Assembly: GCF_016495865.1 (NCBI RefSeq)
Contig: NZ_CP054706.1
Location: forward strand, 1,984,001 to 2,048,000
From: Salicibibacter cibi
GTDB lineage: Bacteria > Bacillota > Bacilli > Bacillales > Marinococcaceae
Length of the DNA stretch: 64,000 bases
Direction: 5' to 3'
In this document: piece by piece, positions 43,060-45,186 of the stretch
How the letters are laid out: each line of letters starts with the position of its first letter
Numbering within the stretch: the first letter of the stretch is position 1
Made by a program: the position numbers and the translations under genes
The notes under the pieces: generated by a model
Database searches by the model: none
Seen by the model: the letters and a program-made list of their open reading frames with translations, nothing else
Told to the model about the DNA's origin: nothing

Positions 43060-43422
43060 CTAACCGAGGGTTTTCTGAACCGCACCAAGCACCCGGTCAG
43101 CTTGAAAAGGTTTCACAACAAAATCTTTGGCTCCTGCTTGAATCGCATCGATCACCATCGCTTGTTGCCCCATCGCGGAACACATAATGACTTTTGCCTG
43201 TGGATCAAGTGCCAAGATTTCTTTTAACGCCTGGATGCCGTCCATCTCCGGCATGGTAATGTCCATCGTTACAAACGCGGGCTTCAATTCCTTGTATTTT
43301 TCCACTGCTTCTTTTCCATTTTCCGCTTCGCCGCAAATTACGAACTGGTTCTTTTCCAATATGTCCTTAATCATCATCCGCATGAACGAAGCATCATCTA
43401 CGATAAGCACGTTGCTTGCCAT
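43060..43422 (-). CDS. cheY: chemotaxis response regulator CheY
   Basis: A single receiver domain of 120 residues. The acidic pair is in LIVDDASFMR, the phosphorylated Asp in FVTMDITMPEMDGI, the Thr/Ser site in IMCSAMGQQ and the Lys in DFVVKPFQAD. It binds FliM and FliY to set rotation. The start at 43422 follows AAAGGAGAGAAGGACA. In B. subtilis cheY follows fliY directly; here a 560-bp stretch with an IscB-type remnant lies between them. Confidence 0.97.
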   Translation of the reverse strand: MASNVLIVDDASFMRMMIKDILEKNQFVICGEAENGKEAVEKYKELKPAFVTMDITMPEMDGIQALKEILALDPQAKVIMCSAMGQQAMVIDAIQAGAKDFVVKPFQADRVLGAVQKTLG

Positions 43423-43434
43423 TGTCCTTCTCTC

Positions 43435-43557
43435 CTTTAGTCGTTTCTGCGGGCTGCCTCCCGGCTTCAACTGATAGCTGCAAGTTGTTCAGCAATCCCT
43501 AATACTACAGCGAAACTTATAAACATTCTTCCTGAAAAGCCTGCAACATCCCCAATC
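43435..43557. other. probable right flank/end of the IscB-type element
   Basis: Holds the inverted-repeat arm TACTACAGCGAAA (43503-43515), which is the exact complement of TTTCGCTGTAGTA (43612-43624) within the iscB remnant. The exact element end is not visible. Confidence 0.35.
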
Positions 43558-43773
43558 TCATGGCTGTCTTCGGCTATAATAAAGACGTCTAGTGACTTTC
43601 TTTAGCCAATCTTTCGCTGTAGTACTAACTAGCACTTTTATGGACACGGGATCCAATAATCTTAATTCAAAATATCCAGTTGCTCTTCTTCCTTTGTTGA
43701 ACAATTTTCGTGCCTTCTGTGGTCTTGTTGGCATTAAAGGTTCTTCTCTTTGATTAGTGACGTAGACGCTCAA
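43558..43773 (-). pseudogene. iscB: IscB (RRXRR/HNH) gene reduced by internal deletion
   Basis: A 71-residue frame with TTG start at 43773 and a good AAAGGGAGGA site. The N-terminus MSVYVTNQREEPLMPTRPQK carries the PLMP motif of IscB proteins. From residue ~28 the frame switches to the C-terminal IscB pattern: GRRATGYFELRLLDPVSIKV resembles the GRRATGYFDLRLLDGTKIHA type tail, with a basic end (RRLYYSRRQP). The RuvC and HNH nuclease parts, several hundred residues, are gone, but the reading frame is preserved across the join. It is therefore an internal-deletion derivative and cannot cut DNA. The upstream RNA looks complete. Recognition is by memory of family motifs. Confidence 0.75.
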
Positions 43774-43779
43774 AGTTAC

Positions 43780-43989
43780 GTCCTCCCTTTTAGAGTTAGG
43801 TGCTCTTCGCCAATGTTGTAAGTGCTTTTGACATGTGTAACACCGTTCCTACCCATCAGAACTTTTAATCACACACGACAGGGCAAGGAGCTAGAGCAGG
43901 CACTCCGGTCATGACACAAACAACGTAGCCAATGAAGACTTAGGCTAGTCAAATAAGGGCTTTTGCAAGCCCGCAACTTTCGTCGTGGG
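43780..43989 (-). ncRNA. HEARO/omega RNA of the IscB element
   Basis: Directly upstream of the iscB remnant on the minus strand lies a ~200-base structured region in the place of the HEARO (omega) RNA that guides IscB. It opens with CCCACGACGAAAGTTGCGGG (hairpin with GAAA loop, 43989-43970), followed at once by GGGCTTGCAAAAGCCC (a perfect hairpin, 43972-43957). The two share GGG, so alternative pairings or a pseudoknot are possible. Further on come conserved-looking single-stranded and stem pieces (TTTGACTAGCC, GGTAGGAACGGTGTTACACATG in part) up to the iscB ribosome site. The 5' end touches the fliY stop, so the natural guide would be the last codons of fliY. Confidence 0.65.
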
Positions 43990-45186
43990 TTATTGACTTC
44001 TTAAGTGCTGCAATCGTTGTTCACGGCTGGCGATGTCTGTCACACGCACCCCAAAATTTTCATCGATGACAACGACTTCGCCTTTTGCCACCAAACGCTG
44101 ATTGACGAGAATATCTACCGGCTCCCCTGCAAGTTTGTCCAACTCAATGATCGACCCTTGTGTAAATTGAAGAATATCCTTGATCGAACGGCTCGTTCTT
44201 CCCAATTCGACGGTCACATCCAAAGGGATGTCCATTAACAGATTGAGATTTTGAGCTTCGGAGGCCTGTAACCCCACATCATCGAAGTCATGAAAAGCCG
44301 CTGGTTGCACGCTTCTTCTGGACGTTTCGTCATGCACGTTTGATGCTGCCTGCTCCCCTTCTACATTTACGCTTCTTTCACTTGATTTTTCATTTATTGC
44401 GAATGGAGGATTTTCTTCGGTGCTAATTTTCTCTTCTTTTTCTCCATTCTGTGAATGAAGCAATTGGGCAGTCATCTCCTTTGCAAAAGCCACGGTGACT
44501 AACTGCATAATGGAAGAATCGATCATGTCTCCCACTCGTAACCGAAAGGAGATTTTGATCAATGTCGCTTCGTCGGACATTTCCTCTGTACCGGAACCTT
44601 CCATCGTATCAAGCATGTCGATGCTGGGAGGAGAAATGTTCACACGAAGACCAAAGATCGTTGACATCGATGTCGAAGAGCTTCCCATCATTTGATTCAT
44701 TGCTTCCTGAACGGCGCTGATGTGCATGTCGGTAAGCTCAGGTGCCGGGTTTAAACCGTCTCCGCCCAACATTAGATCGGCAATGATTTTTGCATCATCT
44801 TGCTTAATGACGAGAAGATTCGTCCCTCTAAATCCTTGCGTATAGTTGACGTGAACAGCCACATGCGGGACGGGAAACTCTTCATGCAAAAGATCAAATT
44901 CAATCGCCTGTACGATAGGCGTCGTAATCGATACCTTTTGGTTGATCAACTCGGACAACGCGGTAGCAGCACTCCCGAAAGAAATATTTCCGATCTCACC
45001 AAGGGTATCTTGTTCCACATCGGTTAAATAATGATTCGCATCCAAGACTGCTTTCGTTGGAGACGGCGGGTAGCCGTCTGCTTGCAAGTCGTTAATTTTC
45101 GTTTCTTCTGCCCCATCGCCTTCAAAACCTTCGAGCAAACGATTGATTTCCTCTTGGGATAATTTCTCATCTCCATGATCGTTCAT
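43990..45186 (-). CDS. fliY: flagellar switch phosphatase FliY
   Basis: C-ring protein of Gram-positives that joins a CheC-like phosphatase and a FliN domain. N-terminal CheY-P binding motif LSQEEINRLLEGFEG, CheC-like active sites TLGEIGNISFGSAATALSEL and DMHISAVQEAMNQMMG, a long Ser/Glu-rich linker, and a C-terminal SpoA domain (LLMDIPLDVTVELGRTSRSI, then VDILVNQRLVAKGEVVVIDE). 398 residues, slightly longer than B. subtilis (378). Its start overlaps the fliM stop. The stop at 43990-43992 abuts the omega RNA, so the insertion spared the gene. Confidence 0.96.
   Translation of the reverse strand: MNDHGDEKLSQEEINRLLEGFEGDGAEETKINDLQADGYPPSPTKAVLDANHYLTDVEQDTLGEIGNISFGSAATALSELINQKVSITTPIVQAIEFDLLHEEFPVPHVAVHVNYTQGFRGTNLLVIKQDDAKIIADLMLGGDGLNPAPELTDMHISAVQEAMNQMMGSSSTSMSTIFGLRVNISPPSIDMLDTMEGSGTEEMSDEATLIKISFRLRVGDMIDSSIMQLVTVAFAKEMTAQLLHSQNGEKEEKISTEENPPFAINEKSSERSVNVEGEQAASNVHDETSRRSVQPAAFHDFDDVGLQASEAQNLNLLMDIPLDVTVELGRTSRSIKDILQFTQGSIIELDKLAGEPVDILVNQRLVAKGEVVVIDENFGVRVTDIASREQRLQHLRSQ

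Follow-up and report, generated by a model that had tools for sequence, protein, structure and literature searches.

Between fliY and a cheY-like gene, on the minus strand of the 64 kb window (the whole stretch of DNA that was analysed), lie approximately 550 bp of mobile-element remains that are very probably a dead IscB (ISC/OMEGA) insertion, decayed in place. The interval contains a HEARO (omega) RNA, the two ends of an iscB gene and nested repeats (Table 1), and it sits within a co-directional run of flagellar genes, where Pfam identifies FliM, a CheC/FliN-type protein (FliY), a response-regulator (CheY-like) and FliO as neighbours. The preliminary description had placed a HEARO RNA and the two ends of iscB between fliY and cheY, and the covariance match, the split alignment and the Pfam neighbours all bear this out. 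The span of 43435-43992 given there was nearly right; the element and its nested repeats extend from about 43997 to about 43450.

Table 1. Features of the interval between fliY and the cheY-like gene, in window coordinates and in the order of transcription.
Feature	Position	Strand	Basis
fliY	43990-45186	-	Pfam CheC/FliN-type protein
HEARO / omega RNA (IscB guide-RNA scaffold)	43795..43997	-	RF02033, 120.8 bits, E 2.1e-24
21-nt leader with ribosome-binding site GGGAGG, before TTG start	43774..43794	-	Sequence; similar leader in intact L024
iscB 5' end, codons 1 to ~27 (PLMP region)	43689..43773	-	22/25 residues identical to L024 IscB; DNA alignment
iscB 3' end, from ~codon 368 of L024	43626..43688	-	DNA alignments to L024 and L036
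71-aa TTG ORF, chimeric: start of iscB, in-frame piece of its tail, frameshifted piece, part of the inserted repeat	43558..43773	-	
122-bp inverted-repeat element, ends TACTACAGCGAAA / TTTCGCTGTAGTA, TTAG flanks on both sides	43503..43624	-	DNA alignment; 97% identical copy
Fragment (~50 bp) of high-copy genome repeat, beginning TTAGGGATTGCTGAACAACTTGCAGC	43453..43502	-	Alignments to 4 copies
cheY-like gene	start 43422	-	Pfam response-regulator

The omega RNA is better preserved than the protein, and Rfam gives no other match at its gathering threshold anywhere in the 64 kb. It covers the full length of the RF02033 model (positions 1-211 of 211), its 120.8 bits stand against a gathering score of 83, and it occupies the expected site just 5' of the iscB start, with 21 nt separating the end of the match from the TTG. 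According to PMC9755519, HEARO RNAs (RF02033) occupy the 5' UTR of HEARO/IscB nucleases, with the reprogrammable spacer forming their 5' region. The window copy differs in having no intact iscB downstream and in two small indels. Alignment with five relatives (three complete and two truncated) reveals an extra T (a 1-nt insertion) within the 3' strand of the first helix, while one hairpin region is 4 nt shorter than in the three complete congeneric copies. These complete copies obtain higher covariance scores than the window copy (148.4 bits for L025, 144.7 for L001 and 140.6 for L024). The earlier characterization of the RNA as intact is therefore correct in that the covariance match is genuine and full-length, but not in its details, given the 1-nt insertion and the 4-nt deletion. 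An unusually stable fold was rejected, as the predicted folding energy is unremarkable (z -1.11, with 33 of 200 shuffles as good). HEARO RNAs that lack a neighbouring nuclease gene have been reported before.

IscB is the ancestor of Cas9. Of this gene, which belongs to the IS200/IS605-like ISC elements, the window retains the opening ~27 codons and part of the last ~50. Everything from codon ~28 to codon ~367 is absent by reference to the 418-aa IscB of locus L024 in the congeneric genome G002, which lies intact behind its own HEARO RNA and carries RRXRR and HNH domains by Pfam, with an NF040563 score of 373.7 bits. The RuvC and HNH parts are thus absent, as had been noted from the outset, and the window gene can no longer specify a functional nuclease; the right end of the element is gone as well. 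Residues 3-31 of the 71-aa ORF match Pfam RRXRR (PF14239) at 25.5 bits against a cut-off of 25 (profile positions 1-29 of 174), and the same residues match the NCBIfam IscB model NF040563 (positions 1-29 of 314) at 25 bits against a cut-off of 175. Residues 1-25 align to residues 1-25 of L024 IscB with 22 identities, while residues 21-45 align to residues 361-385 with 14 identities in 25, which is the split alignment to the two ends of IscB that had been anticipated. In a check of the join for microhomology, the junction between start and tail could be placed only near 43688-43690.

The TTG start and the GGGAGG ribosome-binding site are retained, and the start is joined to the tail in frame for ~14 residues, through GRRATGYFELRLLD (residues 28-41). 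Directly after this segment a 4-nt deletion, evident against both L024 and the decayed L036 of the same genome, shifts the frame of the iscB tail. Residues 42-49 are consequently frameshifted iscB, and the last ~21 residues (~51-71), together with the stop codon, are encoded by the 122-bp inverted-repeat element, which is unrelated to iscB. The claim that start, ribosome site and frame all survive thus holds for the first two and for the join itself, but the frame is lost after 14 tail residues. In-frame retention had further been considered more than plain decay would produce. This does not stand: a single deletion keeps the frame one time in three, and the frameshift and the nested repeat rule it out as a sign of selection. 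The 71-aa ORF is judged not to be a functional gene.

The place of the remaining iscB tail and of the right end is occupied by the fragment of a high-copy repeat, which has at least 39 further matches in the same genome (40 of 173 candidates scored). A right-end hairpin of the GGCTGTC...GACAGCC type, sought with a query string taken chiefly from L031, scores 61-92 in L024, L026, L028, L030, L031 and L033. Between window positions 43423 and 43640 it is absent, the best score being 17, a value reached by 34 of 500 shuffles, and the lone GACAGCC of this stretch falls inside the 122-bp repeat. L001 and L025 are likewise without the hairpin (scores of 17 and 22). The window copy therefore does not combine a left end with a right-end hairpin, as a mobilisable element would. 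A second copy of the 122-bp element is found at G000:C1:2821694-2821822 (G000 being the genome of the window), 97% identical over 129 bp, at a site without iscB; its flanks are CCAG and CTAG, and thus form no clean duplication. This copy lies at positions 1501-1629 of L005, and a third place, L077, shows one of the ends and looks somewhat similar by eye. Each of the two full copies borders on the high-copy repeat, as though its edge were favoured for insertion. The high-copy repeat itself (in the window and in L005-L022) begins TTAGGGATTGCTGAACAACTTGCAGCTATCAGCTGAAGCCGGGA and has a GC-rich interior; its far end in L005 reads TTCAGCAGTCCC, which makes it a possible inverted-repeat (MITE-like) element.

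Two congeneric genomes provide the empty site. In G001 and G003 fliY ends in ...HLRND-stop and the cheY ribosome site follows directly, whereas the FliY of the window ends in ...HLRSQ-stop, with the stop codon lying within GTCAATAA, the first 8 nt of the omega RNA. In G002 fliY ends in HLKND-stop and different DNA comes next, the adjacency of fliY and cheY not being visible within the 220 bases read. Among the four genomes compared in the genus, one per species, the insertion is found in that of the window alone, and it is most simply dated after the split from the nearest congener compared; formally, G001 and G003 could instead have lost an element that was not newly gained in the window genome. 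IscB elements of the genus lie repeatedly at or just past the last codons of a gene (L001, L026 and L025), and GTCAATAA provides the stop codon both at fliY and at an aldehyde-dehydrogenase-like gene of G000.

The course of events may be reconstructed as follows. First, an element carrying an omega RNA, iscB and a right end would have landed in the last codons of fliY, where its 5' end gave FliY a new stop codon and would thereby have left the flagellar operon unbroken. The position at the last codons and the in-frame stop would also explain why the insertion was tolerated. Subsequently iscB would have lost codons ~28-367, apparently in one internal deletion that kept the frame by chance, and the 4-nt deletion would then have shifted the frame of the tail. 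The high-copy repeat probably came to replace the remaining tail and the right end, with the 122-bp element inserting at its edge. The omega RNA is in sense orientation to the operon and is presumably read as part of the operon mRNA; a search of 43400-44100 found no sigma-70-like promoter. The element is most likely no longer working, since its nuclease and right end are gone and searches of the genome turned up no partner IscB.

The condition of related loci across the genus agrees with such a history. Nine loci of this IscB element were compared in the four genomes: the window, L001, L031/L036 and L033 in G000; L025, L028 and L030 in G001; L024 in G002; and L026 in G003. L024 is the single intact locus; the other eight, the window among them, are truncated or rearranged, so that seven of the eight loci other than the window are decayed as well. 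These decayed loci belong to the same element family and have mostly suffered internal deletions, but their breakpoints are unlike those of the window, and the right end that the window lacks is present in six of the eight others, L024 included. The junction of the window is seen in no other locus of the nine. That every junction is unique is contradicted by L026 and L030, whose tail-side breakpoint is common within a few bases, both entering the tail at GATTTGAGATTG by eye, although their RNA-side breakpoints differ (also by eye). In L025 (G001:C1:1667550 onwards) an apparent inverted piece of the iscB tail follows iscB codon ~59 (by eye; minus-strand frame KFVKGFRLFDKVQFN), and this locus is thus rearranged rather than simply deleted. 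The omega RNA starts at the last codons of an aldehyde-dehydrogenase-like gene (by eye) in both G000 and G003, and not in G001 or G002. At this site a complete omega RNA (144.7 bits) is all that was seen of the element in G000, iscB being absent, whereas in G003 a damaged omega RNA, a tail piece and the right end survive. Decay in place predicts just such unequal losses at an orthologous insertion.

Searches with an IscB profile and with the L024 protein found no intact IscB in the genome of the window. The profile gave three matches, none over the cut-off, and the L024 protein gave six, all of them fragments. One of the latter (37% identity over residues 48-111) falls within an open frame of 1051 residues that is Cas9-like by eye (L101, G000:C1:590915-591112 and onwards); its start reads IGLDIGVGSVGFGV and an arginine-rich stretch follows. 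L038 (G000:C1:894605-894907) contains an HNH domain and is preceded, by eye, by group II intron-like sequence; it matches the IscB profile at positions 194-290 with 21.5 bits and is probably not IscB but, judged by eye, a different type of HNH gene. Searching the four genomes for HEARO produced ten matches, eight over the cut-off. Three of these, in G003, accompany more distant IscB genes of 40-44% identity (L088, L091 and L095/L098, left out of the count of nine loci); two of these genes have uninterrupted frames (392 and 435 codons) and may be intact. Among the matches listed in a DNA search of 61 genomes, the element occurs only in the four of the genus. A search of contigs with the L024 protein found 20 loci in other taxa, the best at 67% identity in Evansella.

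The main alternative to decay is that the omega RNA has been domesticated, as a cis-acting structured element or a guide in the flagellar/chemotaxis operon. This is very improbable, but several observations are in keeping with it, including the full-length covariance match, the position in a run of co-directional flagellar genes, and the better preservation of the RNA and the ribosome site than of the protein. L001, moreover, has a complete omega RNA without iscB, a state that selection on the RNA would produce just as decay does. In addition, an GGGCTTGCAAAAGCCC hairpin followed by TTATTT is terminator-like by score and could in principle alter downstream expression. However, a single terminator-like site is close to the shuffle mean of 0.9, the folding energy is not unusual, the RNA carries the 4-nt and 1-nt indels, and G001 and G003 lack the insertion. 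As for an orphan guide RNA, which the preliminary description had also proposed, the guide should lie 5' of the RNA, which here would mean fliY itself, and the lack of any intact IscB found in the genome, together with the decay of most other loci in the genus, leaves this idea little support. That the omega RNA, its nuclease lost, is kept as a structured leader-like element between fliY and cheY tuning the chemotaxis genes, or as a trans guide for some other effector, for instance the putative Cas9-like protein of L101, is to be regarded as most improbable. The insertion may, nonetheless, be too young to tell decay from selection on the RNA.

It is extremely unlikely that the relic is a non-autonomous (MITE-like) IscB derivative moved by TnpA in trans, although its left end and omega RNA are present, L028 and L030 each retain the left part and the right end with the middle deleted, and the genome has two Y1_Tnp matches over the Pfam cut-off, both partial (profile positions 39-121 and 46-90 of 121). 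The missing right-end hairpin argues strongly against the movement in trans that had been envisaged, as does the absence of a repeated internal deletion: among the matches listed from the genome of the window (40 of 173 candidates) and from the 61 genomes, the join of iscB start and tail appears at no second site. A functional, repurposed small peptide is scarcely credible despite the surviving TTG, ribosome site and in-frame join, since its C-terminal part is frameshifted iscB followed by ~21 residues from a repeat that also occurs outside iscB, and a search among proteins of 0.55-1.75 times its length sharing 5-residue words, limits that leave out full-length IscB, found no relatives.

Thus, decay in place remains the best explanation, and apart from the two points that follow, the relic looks like ordinary transposon decay. 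It offers a well-bracketed case, with empty sites in two congeners, of an IscB element that decays without harm where a gene of an operon ends. It also serves as a warning that a full-length HEARO match accompanied by a short in-frame iscB ORF need not imply function.
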